Below, in pieces: positions 3,126-37,157 of a DNA stretch of 40,000 bases. Numbering within the stretch: the first letter of the stretch is position 1; every line of letters begins with the position of its first letter. A program made the position numbers and the translations under genes. The notes beneath the pieces were generated by a model that did not search any database, had not been told where the DNA came from, and saw only the letters and a program-made list of their open reading frames with translations. The stretch covers positions 1 through 40,000 of the forward strand of contig JASLRT010000066.1 of NCBI GenBank assembly GCA_030743815.1, written 5' to 3'. This stretch comes from Candidatus Neomarinimicrobiota bacterium (lineage in GTDB: Bacteria; Fidelibacterota; Marinisomatia; Marinisomatales; S15-B10).

Positions 3126-4185
3126 GAATATTGTTCACATTGTTGGCACGGGAACAATCGGTGAACCGCTCATCGGTCTCATGTCTGATTACCAAGCTGA
3201 ACTGGGCATCGATGAAATAACCTTTCATAAGAATTCACCTCTGTTGCGGGAGCGGGCTAAGGTCAACGATCTCATGAGCAGGGGGGCAAAGCTTGCCGTA
3301 GATGGAGATAAAATTGAAAGTTTCAAAGAAATCGATATAAATCCTGACCTTGAATCAGAAGAGGCAATTAAAAAAGCAACCGTGGTCATCGACTGTACGC
3401 CGAAGGGGATTGGTCACCGCAATAAGCACAGGTATTACGATAGGTTTGTCAAAGAGGGCAAGGGCTTCCTGGCCCAGGGGAGTGAACATGGTTTCGGGAT
3501 GAAATATGCACGCGGCATAAACGACGATGCGTTAAAGAAAAAGGGAGAAAACTTTATTCAGATCGTCTCGTGCAACACGCATAACATTGCAGCCATTACA
3601 AAGACACTTGCACTTAACCGTGGCGAAGACACACTCGAAGAGGGCCGGTTTGTCTGCATCCGACGATCATCTGATATCAGTCAGACGAGTGCATTTGTCC
3701 CGGCGCCGGAGGTGGGAAAGCACAGTGCTGAAAATTACGGCACGCACCACGCCAGAGATGCTGTTGAGCTGTTCCAGACAGTCGATTATTTACCCAACCT
3801 TTTCTCATCGGCAATGAGGATCAATTCTCAGTATATGCACGTAATCTGGTTCAATATACGCCTGAAAGAAAAAGTTACGCTGCAGGATGTGATTGACAGA
3901 TTCGCCGCCGATCCACTCATCGCGCTGACCGAGAAGACGAGTGCCAGTACTGTTTTTTCATTTGGTAGAGACCACGGTCACTATGGCCGCATTCTCAATC
4001 AGACGGTCGTTGCGGTACCCACCCTTACGGTTCACAATCAGAACGAGGTGGTAGGATACTGTTTCACTCCTCAAGATGGTAATTCCCTTTTGAGCTCCAT
4101 TTCTGCGACTGAATGTTTTCTTCACCCAAATAATTGGGAGAAGAAGATTAACGCACTTGCTCACCTTTTTTTCTCTGAAGTATAA
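3118..4185 (+). CDS. Archaeal-type (type II) glyceraldehyde-3-phosphate dehydrogenase homologue
   Basis: This is a 355-residue Rossmann-fold oxidoreductase. I read it as the type II GAPDH family of Archaea, unlike usual bacterial GapA. Evidence: the nucleotide-binding GTGTIG at 10-15, VVIDCTPKGIGHRNK at 89-103, the active-site-like IVSCNTHNIAA with Cys152, an RRSSD segment at 182-186, and THHARDAV with the paired His at 210-211. These occur in the same order and spacing as in archaeal enzymes, which are about 335-340 residues. The substrate is inferred; a related C-terminal dehydrogenase role is possible. I chose ATG 3118, preceded by a GGGGAAGAAG binding site and overlapping the ccmD-like stop, over an upstream TTG at 3088. 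It may be cotranscribed with the ccm genes. Confidence 0.72.
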   Translation: MGKNIVHIVGTGTIGEPLIGLMSDYQAELGIDEITFHKNSPLLRERAKVNDLMSRGAKLAVDGDKIESFKEIDINPDLESEEAIKKATVVIDCTPKGIGHRNKHRYYDRFVKEGKGFLAQGSEHGFGMKYARGINDDALKKKGENFIQIVSCNTHNIAAITKTLALNRGEDTLEEGRFVCIRRSSDISQTSAFVPAPEVGKHSAENYGTHHARDAVELFQTVDYLPNLFSSAMRINSQYMHVIWFNIRLKEKVTLQDVIDRFAADPLIALTEKTSASTVFSFGRDHGHYGRILNQTVVAVPTLTVHNQNEVVGYCFTPQDGNSLLSSISATECFLHPNNWEKKINALAHLFFSEV

Positions 4186-4244
4186 TTCGTAACTTAGCAA
4201 GGGATGAACCTTTTGTCTGCTGACGATACTAAAAAAAATATAAC

Positions 4245-5195
4245 ATGAAGGTTATTGAATATCTCAAGAAGGCCAACTCAACTTTGATAAGTTACGAGAT
4301 TATTCCGCCACTAAGAGGAAGGAGCGCGGAACCGATATTCGAGCTGGTGGAACAACTGATGCCGTACGAACCTCCATTCATCGACCTTACCAGTAGAGCG
4401 GCTGAAATCTATTACGATGATCTGCCGGGCGGCACCGTTAAACGCCACATCCGCCGCAAACGCCCCGGGACCATCGGCCTAAGCGCTGCTATCAAGAATC
4501 GGTTTGACGTTGAGACAGTTCCGCACCTGCTCTGCCGGGGATTTACGCGCGAAGAGACAGAAGACGCTCTCATCGAACTGTTCTATCTCGGTATCGACAA
4601 TGTGCTCGCCATCAGAGGAGATGAGACTAGGAAACAGCAATCCGGCACGAGCGGCAAGTCCTATAACAAGTTTACCACAGATCTGGTGAGACAGATCAAG
4701 GAGATGAATAGCGGAAAGTACGTCGAGGAAGACTTGGCGGACGCCTATGCTACAGATTTTTGTATCGGCGTCGGCGGCTATCCTGAAAAACACTTTGAAG
4801 CGCCTAATCTTGCCGCTGATCTCAGATACCTGAAGGAAAAGGTAGATGCCGGTGCGGACTATATTGTAACTCAAATGTGCTTTGATAACGACGCATTCTT
4901 CAATTTTGTCGAAAAGGCACGCGAGATGGGTATAACGGTGCCCATCATTCCGGGGCTGAAGATTCTGACCCGCAGATCGCATCTCACTTCCATACCGAGG
5001 AACTTTTTCGTGGATATACCGGAGAAGTTAGCGCAAACGGTTATGGAGCTGCCTGAGAAGGAGGCATATGATGCTGGCGTCGCCTGGGCGCTGCAGCAGT
5101 GCCAGGAACTGGTGGAAGCAAAAGTTCCGTGCATCCATTTCTACATCATGCAAGACGCTTCGGCCGTGACGGAGATAGTCTCTCAAATTAGGTAA
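4245..5195 (+). CDS. metF: Methylenetetrahydrofolate reductase (MetF type)
   Basis: This 316-residue TIM-barrel flavoprotein reduces 5,10-methylene-tetrahydrofolate to 5-methyl-tetrahydrofolate for methionine synthesis. Supporting segments are SYEIIPPLRG near residue 17, PHLLCRGFTREETEDAL near 90, NVLAIRGDE near 122, CIGVGGYPEKH near 175, GADYIVTQMCFD near 206, and VPIIPGLKIL near 233. These are the MTHFR blocks in the expected order. The length is slightly above the E. coli enzyme (296). There is no strong Shine-Dalgarno before the ATG; an A-rich run precedes it. The 59-base gap from the GAPDH-like gene has no clear terminator. Confidence 0.93.
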   Translation: MKVIEYLKKANSTLISYEIIPPLRGRSAEPIFELVEQLMPYEPPFIDLTSRAAEIYYDDLPGGTVKRHIRRKRPGTIGLSAAIKNRFDVETVPHLLCRGFTREETEDALIELFYLGIDNVLAIRGDETRKQQSGTSGKSYNKFTTDLVRQIKEMNSGKYVEEDLADAYATDFCIGVGGYPEKHFEAPNLAADLRYLKEKVDAGADYIVTQMCFDNDAFFNFVEKAREMGITVPIIPGLKILTRRSHLTSIPRNFFVDIPEKLAQTVMELPEKEAYDAGVAWALQQCQELVEAKVPCIHFYIMQDASAVTEIVSQIR

Positions 5196-29895: not shown

Positions 29896-30939
29896 ATGTT
29901 AAAGCGAAGTGTTATCTTCGAGCTCATTTCGGGGGATAGATCTGGTTCGATGCTGAAAAGTGCGACAGTCTTAGCGAAAGCATCAATTGGCATCGCTTTC
30001 TTGACTGCGCTGACTGTCTGGAACGGGTGCGGAGCCGATTATCAATCTGTGTCCTCCTTTCATGTTTATAGCACAGTTGATACGAGCCGGGCAGCAATCG
30101 GAGACGTTGTCCGATTTCAGATCTGGGCTAAAGGAACCGGGGAGAGGAGAATCTCATTCCCGCCTATGGCTATCGAGGACTCTGATATTCTTGTGGTAGA
30201 GAGGCGCGATCTGGAAGGGGACAACAGTGATGACATTGGCATGGAATTTCAGATCACTTTCTGGGATACCGGCCGTTTTGAACTTCCGGCATATACAGTC
30301 AACGTTATGAATACAGACAACGATTCTATCGATTACGCCATCACTACGGATCCCGTTGCAGTTACTGTCGAATCGGTCGTCACCGATCCCCAGCCGAGCC
30401 TGAGGGCCATCAAGGAACCTGTACCGATTCCTATTCTCGTGCCGTACAGGATCATCCTTTCACTGGCGGCGATTGTTATTCTTCTGGGATTTCTCCTCTG
30501 GATCTGGCGCAAGAGAGTGGTGGAAAAGCGGGAGCCACCGCTGGTGCAAATTCCTTCCCGGCCACCTATCGATATTGCATGGGAAAAACTGGAGAATCTA
30601 CGCCAGGCAAAGCTGGATTCGCCGGACGAAGTCAAAGAGTTTTATGCAGCACTTTCTCATATTGTGAGAGAGTATATGGAATACCAGTTCTTCATCAGGG
30701 CCATGGAGATGACAACCTCGGAAATTGAAATGGCCAGGGATCTCTTCCCGCTGGAAAGTGAGGACGTTGATCCGATGCTTGATATTCTCAAGCGGGCAGA
30801 CCTGGCCAAGTTTGCCCGTTTTCAGCCTGAAAAGGGGCGCAGCAGGAAAGATATTGTTGCCATCAGTGAATTCATCGAGAAGACCAGAGTCCATCTGTCG
30901 CTGGTGGAAAATGGTGTGACGAAAGCGGAGGTACTATGA
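29896..30939 (+). CDS. BatD-like membrane protein of the MoxR locus
   Basis: This 347-residue protein has an N-terminal signal-like segment (about 19-43), a periplasmic beta-sandwich-like region to about 180, a central membrane segment (about 182-208, RIILSLAAIVILLGFLLWIW), and a cytoplasmic helical domain. That layout resembles BatD and DUF4381-type proteins beside MoxR and DUF58 genes. Two starts are possible: ATG 29896, or ATG 29950, which gives a more normal signal peptide ending near WNGC. The stop overlaps the next gene by ATGA. Function is unknown beyond association with MoxR. Confidence 0.65.
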   Translation: MLKRSVIFELISGDRSGSMLKSATVLAKASIGIAFLTALTVWNGCGADYQSVSSFHVYSTVDTSRAAIGDVVRFQIWAKGTGERRISFPPMAIEDSDILVVERRDLEGDNSDDIGMEFQITFWDTGRFELPAYTVNVMNTDNDSIDYAITTDPVAVTVESVVTDPQPSLRAIKEPVPIPILVPYRIILSLAAIVILLGFLLWIWRKRVVEKREPPLVQIPSRPPIDIAWEKLENLRQAKLDSPDEVKEFYAALSHIVREYMEYQFFIRAMEMTTSEIEMARDLFPLESEDVDPMLDILKRADLAKFARFQPEKGRSRKDIVAISEFIEKTRVHLSLVENGVTKAEVL

Positions 30940-31886
30940 TAGAAGTAAGGAACTTGACGAAGAGATACAGCACTTTCACTGCCGTGGATGATATCTCTTT
31001 TACCGTAGAGAAGGGCCAGATTTTGGGATTCCTCGGACCCAACGGCGCCGGCAAGACTACGACCATGCGGGTCATTACGGGCTTCATGCCGCCTACTAAA
31101 GGGACCGTAGTAGTGGCAGGATTCGATGTGGTTGAGAAACCGCTGGAAGTGAAAAGGCGTATCGGTTACCTGCCGGAATCGCCACCGCTCTATCTCGAAA
31201 TGACGGTGAATGAATATCTTGCTTTTGCCGCCAGACTAAAGCAGATCCCTTCCGCACAGGTAACTGAAAAGATAGCCGGCGCATCGCAAAAAGCAGCTAT
31301 CAGCGATGTGGGGGATAAGGTTATTAAGACCCTCTCCAAGGGATATCGCCAGAGAGTCGGTCTCGCTCAGGCTCTAATTCACGATCCGGAAGTTCTCGTA
31401 CTGGATGAACCTACTATCGGTCTTGATCCTATCCAGATAAGGGAAGTTCGCGAAATGATCAAGTCGCTGGCTCACGAACATACCATCATCCTGTCTACCC
31501 ACATTCTGCCAGAAGTGGATATGACGTGTGACAGTGTGGTGATAATTGACAGAGGGAAAATTATTGCTCAAGATACCCCGGACGGGCTGGCAAAATCGCT
31601 TGAAGGTGCGGAGAAATTGACCATCATGGCTGAAGGCCCGGCGGAAGAAATTTCGGCGGCCGTTAAAGACATCCGGGGGGTGCAAAAGGTTGTCGAGTCC
31701 ACCAGTGAAAATGGCGTTTCAACACTGACCCTGGAGTGTGATTTCCAGTTCCATGTACGCAAGGGGCTTTCAGAAGTCATGTCAGAAAAGGGGTGGGGAC
31801 TCCTCGAAATGAAGGTGGAGGAGACCACGCTGGAGGATGTGTTCATTCATCTCATGTCTGACAGTTCTGAGGAGGTTGTATCATGA
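30936..31886 (+). CDS. ABC transporter ATPase, GldA-like
   Basis: This 316-residue ABC ATPase has Walker A GPNGAGKTT at 34-42, a signature LSKGYRQRVGLAQAL near 132-146, Walker B EVLVLDEP near 152-159, and a C-terminal regulatory domain of about 90 residues typical of ABC-2 exporters. It is followed by a GldF-like permease and a GldG-like auxiliary protein, the order of the gldA/gldFG-type system. In Flavobacterium these were linked to gliding, but homologues occur widely in non-gliding bacteria. ATGA overlaps at both ends indicate tight coupling. The substrate is unknown. Confidence 0.88.
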   Translation: MIEVRNLTKRYSTFTAVDDISFTVEKGQILGFLGPNGAGKTTTMRVITGFMPPTKGTVVVAGFDVVEKPLEVKRRIGYLPESPPLYLEMTVNEYLAFAARLKQIPSAQVTEKIAGASQKAAISDVGDKVIKTLSKGYRQRVGLAQALIHDPEVLVLDEPTIGLDPIQIREVREMIKSLAHEHTIILSTHILPEVDMTCDSVVIIDRGKIIAQDTPDGLAKSLEGAEKLTIMAEGPAEEISAAVKDIRGVQKVVESTSENGVSTLTLECDFQFHVRKGLSEVMSEKGWGLLEMKVEETTLEDVFIHLMSDSSEEVVS

Positions 31887-32665
31887 GGAATGTAATAACC
31901 GTGTTCAGACGGGATTTCCGTTCGTACTTCTCATCTCCGGTGGCCTACGTGGTAATCGGACTGTTTCTTGTGCTGACGGGCGTTTTCTTTTACCTGCTTA
32001 CTTCATCGTTCATGCAGTACGCCACCAATCTTCAGTGGCAAGCAGCCAGATATCGTCAGCCACCTCCGCCGGTGAACGTAAATCACATGATCTTGCGGCC
32101 GCTGTTTTCCAACATCAGTGTCATCACTCTCTTTGTGGTGCCGATGATCACCATGCGCAGTTTTTCCGATGAGAAAAAGACAGGTACGCTGGAGCTGCTC
32201 TTAACGTCGCCGATTACCACCGCGCAGATTGTGCTGGGGAAATTCCTGGCGGCTTTCTTCCTGTATGCCATTATGGTGCTGCTGACGTGGGTCTATCCGC
32301 TTGTGATTATCCTTTTCGGTGATCCCGATGCTCTACCGATTGTGATTTCTTATCTTGGTGTCCTCGGGATGGGGGCGGCGTCCATAGGGATCGGAATCTG
32401 GATCTCAGCCATGACGGAAAATCAGATCATTTCAGCCATGGGAACTTTCGTCATCCTGCTTTTCCTCTGGCTGGTGGGGTGGTTCTCAAATTTTACGTCA
32501 GGTTTCTTAGGAGGATTCTTTGAATATCTCTCCATTGTGGAACATTTCGATGATTTTGCCAAAGGGATATTCGACACGGGCCATCTGATGTATTATGTCT
32601 CGCTGAGCGGAATTACGCTGTTTCTGGCCCATCAGTCTATTGAAAGTGTAAGGTGGAGGTCGTGA
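31883..32665 (+). CDS. ABC-2 type permease, GldF-like
   Basis: This 260-residue inner-membrane protein has six membrane segments. The N-terminus VITVFRRDFRSYFSSPVAYVV and the segment MRSFSDEKKTGTLELLLTSP are marks of ABC-2 permeases of the GldF/NosY-type group. It overlaps the ATPase upstream by ATGA and the auxiliary gene downstream by one base (TGATG). It forms the channel of the exporter; the cargo is unknown. Confidence 0.88.
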   Translation: MRNVITVFRRDFRSYFSSPVAYVVIGLFLVLTGVFFYLLTSSFMQYATNLQWQAARYRQPPPPVNVNHMILRPLFSNISVITLFVVPMITMRSFSDEKKTGTLELLLTSPITTAQIVLGKFLAAFFLYAIMVLLTWVYPLVIILFGDPDALPIVISYLGVLGMGAASIGIGIWISAMTENQIISAMGTFVILLFLWLVGWFSNFTSGFLGGFFEYLSIVEHFDDFAKGIFDTGHLMYYVSLSGITLFLAHQSIESVRWRS

Positions 32666-34221
32666 TGAAGATGTTGTGGCGTGGTTCTCTGTACGACGGA
32701 CTGGCAGTCCTTTTTCTGGGATGGCTGTATGGTGTCTCAATTGTAAAGTTCGACTGGATAGCATGGACGCTCATCGGCTTGGGCGGCGTTCTCGTGGTGG
32801 CCTCAGTGGGGCTGAACTGGAACCGATTTTCTCAGATGGTAAAAGAGAGAAGAACGCAGGTCAGCCTGAACGCCCTTCTGGTGATCGTTCTCGTACTCGG
32901 CATTGTGGGTATGCTGGATTACCTCTCTATCCGGCACTCATGGCGCGTAGATACCACTTCGCAGAGGGAATTCAGTCTCTCGGAACAAACTGTAAGTATA
33001 TTGAGGAATCTGGATGAAGATGTATCGTTGACGGCGTTTGTGAGCGATGCGGAAATCCGGCAGATGGGAGACCGCCTCACTGAATATGTTCACTACTCAG
33101 CCAAGTTCAAGTATGATATCATCGATCCCATCAAAGAGCCTGACCGGGTGCGAGAATTCTTCGGCCCCGATAAGCAGTACCTCGATATGCCGACACTCGT
33201 CCTCAAGACAGCTCTGAAAGATGAAGAGATAAAGAGTGTTGACGAGGAGAATATCACCAACGCCCTGATCAAGGTGACGCGCAAGGAGAAGCGCAAGGTC
33301 TATTTTACTCAGGGGCATGGCGAAAAGACGATTAATCCCGATCAGCCCGGGATGGACGGATATCAATTCGTGAGGGAGGATCTGGAGAAGCAGCATTTCG
33401 ACGTGGAGGAAATCAATCTCTATGAATCAGAAGCCGTTCCTGTGGATGCCGATGTTCTCGTGGTAGCGGGGCCCGCCCGGCGGCTGGCGAAAGGGGAAAT
33501 CGATGCCGTTGACAAGTTTCTCGAAGACGGAGGAAACGTGCTGGCCATGATCGATCCCGAAACGGAGAGTGGCACTGATTCTTTGCTTGCGAATTGGAAT
33601 GTAAAACTGAACCGCGATATGGTCATCGAGACACACTCCAGTTTTGTTCTCACTTCTCAGGGATTAAGCCGACAGAGCAACGTGAGTGTGGCACCGGCGT
33701 CGGCCGAATACGGCGAACATATGATAACCAAAAACTTTCGCTTTGCTACATCTTACATCAAGGCCCAATCGTTGACCGTCATTGATGAGGAAGATGATTC
33801 CATTGAGACAACTCCTCTGGTCTACACAAGCGGCAACAGTTGGGGGGAGACCAATCTGGACATGCTGTTCGATGAAGGAAAAGTCGCACAGGATGAGGAT
33901 GATCACGAGGGACCAACAACGGTGGCCATGGCTGTGGAGAAAGATAGCGGCAACAAGACGCGTCTTGTGGTGATGGGTGACTCCGATTTCGCCTCCGATG
34001 TCTATGTGGAGCAGGCTCCCGGGAATAGAGATTTTTTCCTCAATGTAGTGAGTTGGCTGGCAGAGGAAGAGGATTTGATTTCGGTACGGCCGAAGGAAAC
34101 CGAAAACCGCCCCCTTACAATGACCATGCGCCAGCAGAAGCTGACACTGTTCTTCCTGATTATCCTTCTCCCGCTACTGGCTGTCCGAATGGGGATTCAC
34201 GTTTACATGAAGAGATCCTGA
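32665..34221 (+). CDS. GldG-like auxiliary component of ABC exporter
   Basis: This 518-residue protein has two membrane segments at the N-terminus (about 10-30 and 32-55) and a third just before it enters the periplasm, a large extracytoplasmic domain (about 95-485) of the ABC_transp_aux type (FTQGHGEKTINPD, DVLVVAGPARRLAKGEIDAV, NVLAMIDPE), and a C-terminal membrane segment. This is the GldG family layout. ATG 32665 is chosen because GGAGG lies five bases upstream and overlaps the permease stop; upstream GTG codons are in frame but poorly placed. Confidence 0.86.
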   Translation: MKMLWRGSLYDGLAVLFLGWLYGVSIVKFDWIAWTLIGLGGVLVVASVGLNWNRFSQMVKERRTQVSLNALLVIVLVLGIVGMLDYLSIRHSWRVDTTSQREFSLSEQTVSILRNLDEDVSLTAFVSDAEIRQMGDRLTEYVHYSAKFKYDIIDPIKEPDRVREFFGPDKQYLDMPTLVLKTALKDEEIKSVDEENITNALIKVTRKEKRKVYFTQGHGEKTINPDQPGMDGYQFVREDLEKQHFDVEEINLYESEAVPVDADVLVVAGPARRLAKGEIDAVDKFLEDGGNVLAMIDPETESGTDSLLANWNVKLNRDMVIETHSSFVLTSQGLSRQSNVSVAPASAEYGEHMITKNFRFATSYIKAQSLTVIDEEDDSIETTPLVYTSGNSWGETNLDMLFDEGKVAQDEDDHEGPTTVAMAVEKDSGNKTRLVVMGDSDFASDVYVEQAPGNRDFFLNVVSWLAEEEDLISVRPKETENRPLTMTMRQQKLTLFFLIILLPLLAVRMGIHVYMKRS

Positions 34222-34308
34222 CGCTTGCGCGGAGTGTGACAATGAAACGAAGTGAAATTGTTGCTGATCTGAAGTTCAAGCAAGAAATGGAGGATAAGTA
34301 ACAGACCA

Positions 34309-35667
34309 ATGAAGAAAACGATCATTCTGGCGGCAATTGCGGCAGCGCTGGCGGCGTTCATCTATTCCGATATCGAAAAAGGGAAAGAGCGTGAAGAGGC
34401 GGAGGAATATGAGTCGTCGCTGTTGAAGATTGAGCAAGACGACGTCAATTCCATCACACTCATTAAGTGGGAGGGCGACACAATCGTCTATGTCCGTGCA
34501 GAAAATGACAAGTGGCGTATCACTTCGCCTGTTGTGACCGAAGGAGATCAATCCGCCGTCAGGAGTAATGTGAGCGGCTTCGTCAATGCCGATATCAAGA
34601 GGCGCCTGAGAACTACTGCCGCCAAACTCAAAAACTTTGGTCTCGATCCCGCTGCCATGGAGGTGATTATTGAGACTGGCGATGATCGTAAGATTAACCT
34701 GTTAGTTGGTGATAAAGCGGCCACAAGAGGCGACATGTTCGTCGCCTTCAAAGATTCGCTGCAAGTGCTGGTGACATCTTCCAATATCCTGACTCTGGCT
34801 GACAAATCACTCTTCGACCTGCGGGACAAGAAGATTGCTCACTATGAAAAGGACGACGTGAAGCGGGTGGAAATTGTATCGCAGCAGTACGATATCGTTC
34901 TGGAAAAATCGGGAGATGAGTGGATCATGCTGAAGCCGGGGGGGATCCTGGTAGACAATTCACGGGTCGACAGTTTTCTCAACAGTCTGAAGAACTATTC
35001 GGCAAAGTCATTTGCACAGGAGTCATTCAGTGATGGGGCGCAGTTCGGTTTTGATAAGCCGGTTCTGAAGCTCAGCCTGATGCTCGGCGATGAACTGTCC
35101 ACCAAGAAAATTGTCATCGGCAAGCAGCTTGAAGATGACGATGAGGCGCATTACGGCTACGAATCTGGGAGATCGCCGGTGTTTGTCGTGCGGGAGTCCA
35201 ACAGGGAGAGCATGACGAAGGAGCCGTTCTATTTCCAGGATAAGAAGATTGCCCGTTTCGATAAGAGTGAAATTACTGAGATCCGATTTTCAGGAGCATA
35301 TCAGGTCACGCTGACAAAAGAAGATACCATCGGCTGGTACGCCTTTACGGACTCCAGTATAAAAGTAGAAGACTCGGACATGGATCGCCTGTTTTCGCAT
35401 TTCAGCGCTCTAAACGTACGCGAGTTGGCCACCTATTCCCCCGAGGACCTCAGCGCCTACGGGTTGTCATCTCCTTTTCTTGCGGTTTCCCTCCTGAGGG
35501 AGGGCGAACAGGTTGCGGGATTTGAGGTGGGAGACGGCGTGGACAGCGACCGCTACGTTCGCAGCAGTGCTTATCCGTTTATCTACAAGTCATCCGTCAG
35601 TCAGGTGGATCGAATATTGGAATGGCTGAAGGAGTTCTTCGATCCCGAAGAGTCGTTACCGCTCTAG
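34309..35667 (+). CDS. DUF4340 domain protein
   Basis: This 452-residue protein has an N-terminal anchor or signal (residues 3-19) and a long extracytoplasmic region with repeated segments such as KLKNFGLDPAAMEVII and ELATYSPEDLSAYGLSSP, the x-Y-G-L-x-x-P pattern of DUF4340. Such genes regularly follow GldFG-type ABC exporters, so it probably serves the same machine. A role is not known. An 87-base gap separates it from the GldG-like gene. Its stop codon overlaps the convergent stop of the minus-strand gene by four bases. Confidence 0.82.
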   Translation: MKKTIILAAIAAALAAFIYSDIEKGKEREEAEEYESSLLKIEQDDVNSITLIKWEGDTIVYVRAENDKWRITSPVVTEGDQSAVRSNVSGFVNADIKRRLRTTAAKLKNFGLDPAAMEVIIETGDDRKINLLVGDKAATRGDMFVAFKDSLQVLVTSSNILTLADKSLFDLRDKKIAHYEKDDVKRVEIVSQQYDIVLEKSGDEWIMLKPGGILVDNSRVDSFLNSLKNYSAKSFAQESFSDGAQFGFDKPVLKLSLMLGDELSTKKIVIGKQLEDDDEAHYGYESGRSPVFVVRESNRESMTKEPFYFQDKKIARFDKSEITEIRFSGAYQVTLTKEDTIGWYAFTDSSIKVEDSDMDRLFSHFSALNVRELATYSPEDLSAYGLSSPFLAVSLLREGEQVAGFEVGDGVDSDRYVRSSAYPFIYKSSVSQVDRILEWLKEFFDPEESLPL

Positions 35668-37157
35668 AGCAGTAAGAGTATAATCGTTCCCCCCGACAGC
35701 GTACAAAGCAGATTCACTACATCATTGTTGATGTATCCGGTGCCGCGCGCGAGAGTAGCCGGTTCGGAGCAGTGGCTGGCGGCTTCCGTCATCCTGTTAC
35801 ACTCATTACATCTGTAGAGCCCCTGAACCGAAGCGCCGAGGAAGGAATCGATGAGACTGCCTGCAAAACCGGCGGCGATGACCCATTTCAGTATGCTAGG
35901 ATTGGGTAGAAAAGGATAAGCGGTTGCGGCGATCGCTATAGAGCCCAACAGTCCTCCCGCTGTTCCGATCAGCGTCACCCCACCCGATGCGCCCGGTTCC
36001 ATCTTGGCAAATGTGACACTGTTGCGGGGCACCCATCTGGAAAAGAATCCTATCTCCGTTTCCCAAGTGTCAGCCGTGGCCGCCGCTACGCTAGCCAGGT
36101 AAACGGCGTAGAGCCACTCAGATGGCTGATAAAACCACCAGATAGCTAGGAGCATGGGAATGCCGCCGTTGGAAAAAACCTGCACAATATCACGCCGTGA
36201 TCCTTTGACGGGTACAGCTCTGGCGGTTTTTTTACGGTGCTTACCAACCTTAGACAGGAGGGAAGAGAGGACGAAAAATACAACTAGCGGGATCATGAAT
36301 TGCCAGCTTCCTATACCGAAGATGAACAGACCCATGATAAAAGCTCCGAGAGCACCGTTCGTCGAAACGGTATTGAGCTTCACGGCACCTACTGCGAGAA
36401 CGAATGAGAATAGAATCCACAGCAGGAGTGTAACGGTTTCGCCATTTTGTGCAGTGATATAAAAAAGATCGTAGCTTACCGCCGCCACTAACGGAACCGT
36501 TAGGTTATCTGATCCTGTGCTGGAGGTTGCCTCGGCGACAGTGACCAGTGCAGCCACAAAGAGAGAGAGTGGCAGCAAGATTTTCAGGTCGACGGGTGGA
36601 ACATTAACTAACCCCTGGAACATACGCGTCCCCAAACCGATCAGAAGGATCGACACGATGAACATTATCACGCTTCCCTGAATAGTTTTTCTGTCGCGCC
36701 AAACTGTGTAAAATTCAGGCGATTTTGCACGCTCACCCGCAACAGCGGCAGCCGTGTCGGCAAAAGTCAAAAGTAGCAGGGAAATCTCGAAAACTACGGG
36801 CCGTTCCCACCAGAACAGGCAGAGGATCAGATAGGCTAACGGGAAATATACAGTACCGTATGTAACGCGGTTCGTAGCGTGCATCGCCTCGAACTTCTTG
36901 GTCCTCAGGGTAACGATATTTACGGCGATAAAAATAGCGGCCAGAGTAATGGGGGGAAGTTTAGAGACAAAGAGGAAAGGAGAAAATATTACCAGCACTC
37001 CCACAATGATGTGGACGGATCTGCGGCTCGTCTCCACAGTCCACCTCAGTTTAGACCGGGCTGCCTCGCTCAGGCCGATGAGGAAGAAGATAACTCCCAG
37101 AAAGACCAGGAAGGTGATCCACTCGTTCTCAAAGGGAGAAAATGTGGGAAACATCAC
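35664..37157 (-). CDS. Fused phytol/dolichol kinase-like and DUF92 (VTE6-like) membrane protein
   Basis: The 497-residue protein has some 12 or more membrane segments and two distinct halves. Residues 1-235 resemble the SEC59/VTE5 kinase group: RRSVHIIVGVLVIF, FADTAAAVAGERAKSPEF, RKTIQGSVIMF, and EATSSTGSDNLTVPL. Residues 240-497 match DUF92/TMEM19/VTE6: FSNGGIPMLLAIWW, AATADTWETEIGFFSR, MEPGASGGVTLIGTAGG and IDSFLGASVQG with a Cys pair CNEC. In plants VTE5 phosphorylates phytol and VTE6 phosphorylates the resulting phytyl phosphate, so one protein could do both steps on phytol or another isoprenoid alcohol. That activity is inferred. It is the only minus-strand gene here. Confidence 0.85.
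   Translation of the reverse strand: MMFPTFSPFENEWITFLVFLGVIFFLIGLSEAARSKLRWTVETSRRSVHIIVGVLVIFSPFLFVSKLPPITLAAIFIAVNIVTLRTKKFEAMHATNRVTYGTVYFPLAYLILCLFWWERPVVFEISLLLLTFADTAAAVAGERAKSPEFYTVWRDRKTIQGSVIMFIVSILLIGLGTRMFQGLVNVPPVDLKILLPLSLFVAALVTVAEATSSTGSDNLTVPLVAAVSYDLFYITAQNGETVTLLLWILFSFVLAVGAVKLNTVSTNGALGAFIMGLFIFGIGSWQFMIPLVVFFVLSSLLSKVGKHRKKTARAVPVKGSRRDIVQVFSNGGIPMLLAIWWFYQPSEWLYAVYLASVAAATADTWETEIGFFSRWVPRNSVTFAKMEPGASGGVTLIGTAGGLLGSIAIAATAYPFLPNPSILKWVIAAGFAGSLIDSFLGASVQGLYRCNECNRMTEAASHCSEPATLARGTGYINNDVVNLLCTLSGGTIILLLL

Follow-up and report, generated by a model that had tools for sequence, protein, structure and literature searches.

A single gene of a Candidatus Neomarinimicrobiota bacterium, located in the 40,000-nucleotide stretch of DNA analysed here (referred to as the window), encodes a membrane protein that joins a SEC59/CTP-transferase-type kinase domain to a DUF92 domain; the conserved motif residues of both domains are present, and the fusion is retained phylum-wide. 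We propose that this protein is probably a bifunctional integral-membrane enzyme, a prenol kinase and a prenyl-phosphate kinase in one chain, which salvages C15-C20 alcohols and is likely to depend on CTP. We infer the kinase chemistry, the use of CTP, the order of the two steps and the class of substrate from the protein families to which the two halves belong. The idea of a fusion with a role as isoprenoid kinase, raised in an earlier note on this DNA, is sound but not new, as it was already published for archaea in 2015 (PMC5898192). The SEC59-DUF92 architecture is therefore known, and what is added here is its retention across a bacterial phylum.

Gene and start codon

The gene is an uninterrupted open reading frame on the minus strand, which encodes 497 amino acids when read from a GTG codon at position 37157, whereas the plus strand of the same region is full of stop codons and hence non-coding (Table 1). 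An ATG codon at position 37154, one codon further in, is probably the likelier start, since relatives align their methionine to residue 2, and its use would yield a product of 496 amino acids. The host genome is 2.1 Mb in size and assembled in 123 contigs, and as about 110 genomes share the SEC59-DUF92 architecture, the fusion gene is not an assembly artefact.

Table 1. Positions of the fusion gene, its two domains and their motifs in the window
Feature	Position	Strand	Observation
Fusion protein CDS	35664..37157	-	Open frame; stop codon included; methionine of relatives at residue 2
SEC59/CTP-transferase-type kinase domain (VTE5-like), residues 35-236	36450..37055	-	hhalign to stand-alone SEC59-type paralogs; weaker to CdsA
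R45-x3-H49-x3-G53 kinase-domain motif	36999..37025	-	Invariant in 38 and 54 fusion sequences
D134-x6-G141 motif	36735..36758	-	Invariant; aligns with D-x-x-A-x-x-x-G of SEC59-type paralog and CdsA
K157-[TS]-x-x-G161 motif	36675..36689	-	K and G invariant; aligns with KTxEG of paralog
E209...G-S-D217-N218...P222 motif	36492..36533	-	E209, D217 and N218 invariant in 54 fusions; aligns with E...DDN...P of paralog
DUF92 domain (PF01940; VTE6/COG1836), residues 250-489	35691..36410	-	Pfam E 2.7e-62; genome profile search 2.4e-63
DUF92 motif D363-T-W-x2-E368-x-G370	36048..36071	-	D363 in 53/54 fusions; E368 and G370 invariant
DUF92 motif G389-x-S391-G392	35982..35993	-	Invariant in 54 fusions
DUF92 motif D437-S438-x2-G441-x3-Q445	35823..35849	-	Invariant in 54 fusions
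C450-x2-C453...H462-C463, possible metal-binding loop within DUF92 half	35769..35810	-	Intact in 44/54 fusions

The two halves of the fusion protein

The assignment of the C-terminal half is clear. It scored 210.8 bits against PF01940, for which the cut-off is 27.5, and the match covers profile positions 2-250 of 251. Against the narrower NCBIfam model TIGR00297 the same half reached 135.7 bits, below the curated cut-off of 205.85, and by this measure it is no equivalog of that group. A PDB sequence search with the C-terminal half gave no match. Across the 54 fusion proteins aligned, residues R322, Q326, N330, E368, G370, D437, N478 and N482 are invariant, and the sole exception at D363 is an ambiguous residue (X) in one sequence. 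D363 and D437 are the likely counterparts of the two conserved catalytic aspartates reported for DUF92 (PMC5898192). The possible metal-binding loop is lost in some of the fusions and is therefore not strictly required.

The N-terminal half was recognised by comparison of profiles. A single-sequence Pfam search with this half yielded no significant match, PF01148 (CTP_transf_1) included, and only four out of 18 relatives reached PF01148 with their N-terminal half (best E 7e-4). In contrast, hhalign aligned the N-terminal profile with a family of 27 stand-alone SEC59-type kinases over 181 collinear columns (P 8.5e-16), and a profile built from 54 fusions matched the SEC59-type paralogs with P 2.5e-17, as compared to 0.22 for the reversed control. 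One of these paralogs is encoded by the host genome itself (L022:1453-2034, contig C35); it passes the PF01148 cut-off and is picked up directly by the fusion profile (2.6e-6, profile positions 35-234). It is homologous to the N-terminal half and collinear with it over 181 columns, but is a stand-alone protein of 193 amino acids. The similarity to CdsA is weaker (P 1.7e-5; reversed control 0.51), and a PDB search with the N-terminal half gave a weak but collinear match to the CdsA structures 4q2g and 4q2e (E about 0.06). The N-terminal half may be closer to VTE5 than to SEC59. Thus, the earlier note was right that one chain joins a SEC59/CTP-transferase-type and a DUF92/VTE6-type domain, while its expectation that both halves match family profiles held for the C-terminal half outright and for the N-terminal half in profile-to-profile comparison, not in the single-sequence Pfam search.

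Residues R45, H49, G53, D134, G141, K157, G161, E209, D217 and N218 of the N-terminal half are invariant in the 54 fusions, and the motif residues are intact in both halves. In the yeast CTP-dependent kinase Dgk1, which belongs to the same superfamily, the substitution R76A or D177A abolishes activity (PMC3486869); going by the order of the motifs rather than an alignment with Dgk1, R45 and D134 would be equivalent to R76 and D177. The 2015 study of archaeal membrane proteins related DUF92 to PF01148 by a broader profile search and found the catalytic aspartates conserved (PMC5898192). We also considered an internal duplication as the origin of the two halves; they align in motif register, but their score of 24.1 is no better than the 23.6 obtained with the reversed control and is not significant. 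Two AlphaFold models calculated from a three-sequence alignment had a mean pLDDT of 39 and 47 and are too poor to be used for the fold.

Distribution and history of the fusion

A survey of how often the fusion occurs, as the earlier note had advised, covered 175 Neomarinimicrobiota genomes with a completeness of at least 80%. The fusion profile matched in 126 of these, and the fusion was counted in 113, with a few copies split or cut by contig ends. DUF92 was found alone in four genomes and a broken copy of the fusion in one, and another eight gave a weak match only, via SEC59-type or N-half-like proteins. Neither the fusion nor DUF92 on its own was found in 57 of the 175 genomes, large near-complete ones included, and the function is therefore dispensable. 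The SEC59-DUF92 fusion is probably ancestral to the Neomarinimicrobiota, a phylum also known as Marinimicrobia or SAR406. The DUF92 tree broadly tracks the host families, apart from one pair of family f1 and several entries of families f7 and f8, which are long or displaced. Both the retention of the fusion and the agreement between tree and hosts argue for the bifunctional prenol kinase.

One of the DUF92-alone cases, L083, nests among the fusions, yet sits at a contig end. The other three belong to family f23 and lie between AddAB-type helicase genes, as the fusion does in L086 and L090; because they occupy the same place, these lone DUF92 genes are probably orthologous to the fusion. Read without a root, the DUF92 tree is compatible with f23 having lost the N-terminal half or never having had one. 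In a family f21 genome, the fusion gene is broken and contains several stop codons (G036:C1:201350-202798). Outside the phylum survey, a scan of genome contigs retrieved at least two close relatives, and two scans of viral contigs retrieved none. The stand-alone SEC59-type kinase was found in 27 of 31 relatives, among them several that do not possess the fusion.

Genomic context and isoprenoid gene content

No isoprenoid gene is located next to the fusion gene in the window or at the other loci examined, and neither chlorophyll nor tocopherol genes were found near it at these loci. The neighbourhood, made up of unrelated genes such as RmuC, AddAB, a Gld-like ABC operon and DUF4340, was considered as a functional clue and is uninformative. 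In the window, genes for an ABC transporter ATPase, a permease, a GldG-like and a DUF4340-like protein form an operon on the plus strand (30936-35667), which is convergent with the fusion gene, and this arrangement is kept in G002 (L094).

The host genome codes for IspG of the MEP pathway, GGGP synthase, a GG-reductase, heme O synthase, and MenA-type and GGGP-geranylgeranyltransferase-like UbiA proteins, whereby the MenA-type proteins are weakly similar to the phytyltransferase model TIGR02235. Among these, the UbiA proteins, GG-reductase and GGGP synthase are consumers of prenyl diphosphates, and their presence speaks for a bifunctional prenol kinase. Tocopherol cyclase (PF14249) is absent from the host genome; the family was matched in 16 of the 175 genomes, mostly with only the C-terminal part of the model (e.g. 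G094:C73:14719-15282).

Archaeal lipid genes have previously been described in bacteria of the FCB superphylum (PMC7852524). GGGP synthase was found in 89 of 113 genomes with the fusion as compared to 35 of 57 without it (Fisher p 0.02, ignoring relatedness), and a strong GG-reductase match in 94 of 113 versus 32 of 57 (Fisher p 0.0003, again ignoring relatedness). Thirteen genomes with the fusion possess neither a GGGP synthase nor a strong GG-reductase match, and the link to the archaeal-lipid genes is therefore loose rather than strict.

Proposed function and alternatives

In plants, phytol is phosphorylated by VTE5 and the resulting phytyl phosphate by VTE6, with CTP as the strongly preferred donor (PMC9782597), and both enzymes also accept geranylgeraniol and its phosphate, respectively (PMC13415981). 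For the fusion protein, we hypothesize that the SEC59/VTE5-type N-terminal half phosphorylates a short-to-medium prenol, such as farnesol, geranylgeraniol or a reduced C20 alcohol like phytol, for which CTP would be the likely phosphate donor. The DUF92/VTE6-type C-terminal half would then turn the prenyl monophosphate into the diphosphate, which could rejoin the general pool of prenyl diphosphates and be used for quinones, isoprenoid lipids and polyprenyl chains. In this way, the fusion would hold two steps that share a membrane-bound intermediate within one polypeptide. In archaea, DUF92 is linked to uppS, and the family was proposed to provide a kinase step of isoprenoid biosynthesis (PMC5898192); in a table published in 2011, COG1836 is assigned to phytol-phosphate metabolism and listed as essential in Synechocystis (PMC3223725). 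That one chain carries out two consecutive phosphorylations, as the earlier note suggested, is a reasonable deduction from these families, and no assay for the activity of a fused protein turned up in our literature search. Counting against the bifunctional prenol kinase are the missing isoprenoid neighbour, the dispensability of the function, the four genomes with DUF92 alone, the failure of the N-terminal half to match in a single-sequence search and the non-significant similarity of the two halves to one another.

A narrower reading, which starts from the phytol salvage suggested in the earlier note, is that environmental phytol, derived from chlorophyll, is salvaged to phytyl diphosphate for the synthesis of quinones or tocopherol-like compounds. 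This would fit the VTE5/VTE6 type of the two halves and the weak TIGR02235 similarity of the MenA-type UbiA proteins, and the host, as a member of a mostly marine phylum, may come across chlorophyll-derived phytol. However, the host has IspG and lacks tocopherol cyclase, which in the phylum is rare and mostly partial, and the loci examined are devoid of chlorophyll and tocopherol genes, so that a connection to either compound finds no support. Methanogens, which have no chlorophyll, possess the same fusion (PMC5898192), and the plant enzymes themselves are not exclusive for phytol (PMC13415981). We therefore regard salvage specific for phytol as unlikely, though phytol may be one of the substrates. 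Alternatively, the first half could act like a dolichol kinase on polyprenols of the undecaprenol class and recycle them for glycan lipid carriers. The SEC59/dolichol-kinase-type family is the closest solid profile match of the N-terminal half and the archaeal link of DUF92 to uppS (PMC5898192) points in the same direction, but genomes with the fusion usually have a separate SEC59-type kinase, which would duplicate this step, glycan carriers act as monophosphates and would leave a second kinase without an obvious role, and neither uppS nor a glycosylation gene was recognised beside the fusion at the loci examined, making recycling of long-chain polyprenols unlikely.

The protein might also not be a pair of prenol kinases at all, if one or both halves acted as a diacylglycerol kinase or cytidylyltransferase, or if one half were non-catalytic and served to position the other. 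CdsA and CTP-dependent diacylglycerol kinases are members of the superfamily and the N-terminal half does match CdsA, both by profile and, weakly, in the PDB search (4q2g). On the other hand, the motif residues of both halves are invariant in 54 sequences, the same genome encodes CdsA and a SEC59-type kinase as separate genes, and the DUF92 half falls into the family of the plant prenyl-phosphate kinase, and we consider such a function very unlikely. As most of the phylum has GGGP synthase and GG-reductase and the host also has a GGGP-geranylgeranyltransferase-like UbiA protein, one might further speculate that the fusion returns C20 chains to the synthesis of archaeal-type isoprenoid ether lipids and is thus the salvage route for a membrane of mixed bacterial and archaeal type, which we think very unlikely.

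Comparison with known systems

The closest described counterparts of the fusion are Mbar_A3310 of Methanosarcina barkeri (arCOG02245/COG1836/PF01940) and other proteins in which an N-terminal Sec59-like domain precedes DUF92 (PMC5898192). Mbar_A3310 has the same order of domains and retains both catalytic aspartates in each of them (PMC5898192), but is archaeal, whereas the fusion studied here is bacterial; the two were compared by the published description. The phytol kinase VTE5 of plants and cyanobacteria and the farnesol kinase FOLK are of a related superfamily and would by function correspond to the first step, but they are separate proteins characterised in photosynthetic organisms. Similarly, plant VTE6, a phytyl-phosphate kinase of COG1836, shares its family with the C-terminal half, which is a clear DUF92 member; VTE6 stands alone, whereas its counterpart here shares a chain with the first kinase, and this in a bacterium that has no obvious chlorophyll or tocopherol pathway.

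Genes for the second step, the phosphorylation of prenyl phosphates, are known in few organisms, and none of the literature cited here names a characterised prenol-salvage kinase gene of a heterotrophic bacterium. The fusion is not a new type of system, but a one-chain form found phylum-wide is convenient for testing, as a single gene would offer two separable activities and motif mutants for each half. If confirmed, the proposed role would give a function to proteins labelled DUF92, and could reveal if environmental isoprenoid chains are reused by bacteria of this kind.

Additional observations on prenyl-related genes

Several further gene arrangements were noted in the course of the analysis. 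In the host genome, a MenA-type UbiA protein carries an N-terminal pyridoxamine-oxidase-like (PNPOx) domain and its gene is followed by a probable UbiE/MenG gene (L102:949-2454, plus strand, contig C5). Also in the host, a protein of 651 amino acids with a C-terminal heme O synthase (CtaB) and a heme A synthase-like N-terminal part (L099:358-2310, plus strand, contig C86) is a probable CtaA-CtaB fusion, and frames of similar length are present in G002, G003, G005 and G008. On host contig C90, the GG-reductase gene lies beside a gene for a 317-amino-acid membrane protein without a Pfam or NCBIfam match (L118:2033-3217 and 3370-4320, minus strand); in L097 (G110) a UbiA member takes the position of the latter, and the UbiA-GGR pair thus seems to be conserved. 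Lastly, G134 has, in addition to the fusion, a stand-alone relative of the N-terminal half of 280 amino acids without a Pfam match (L089:4249-5088, minus strand, contig C91), which is located near genes coding for a UbiA-like prenyltransferase, an MMPL-type transporter and a methyltransferase-like protein.
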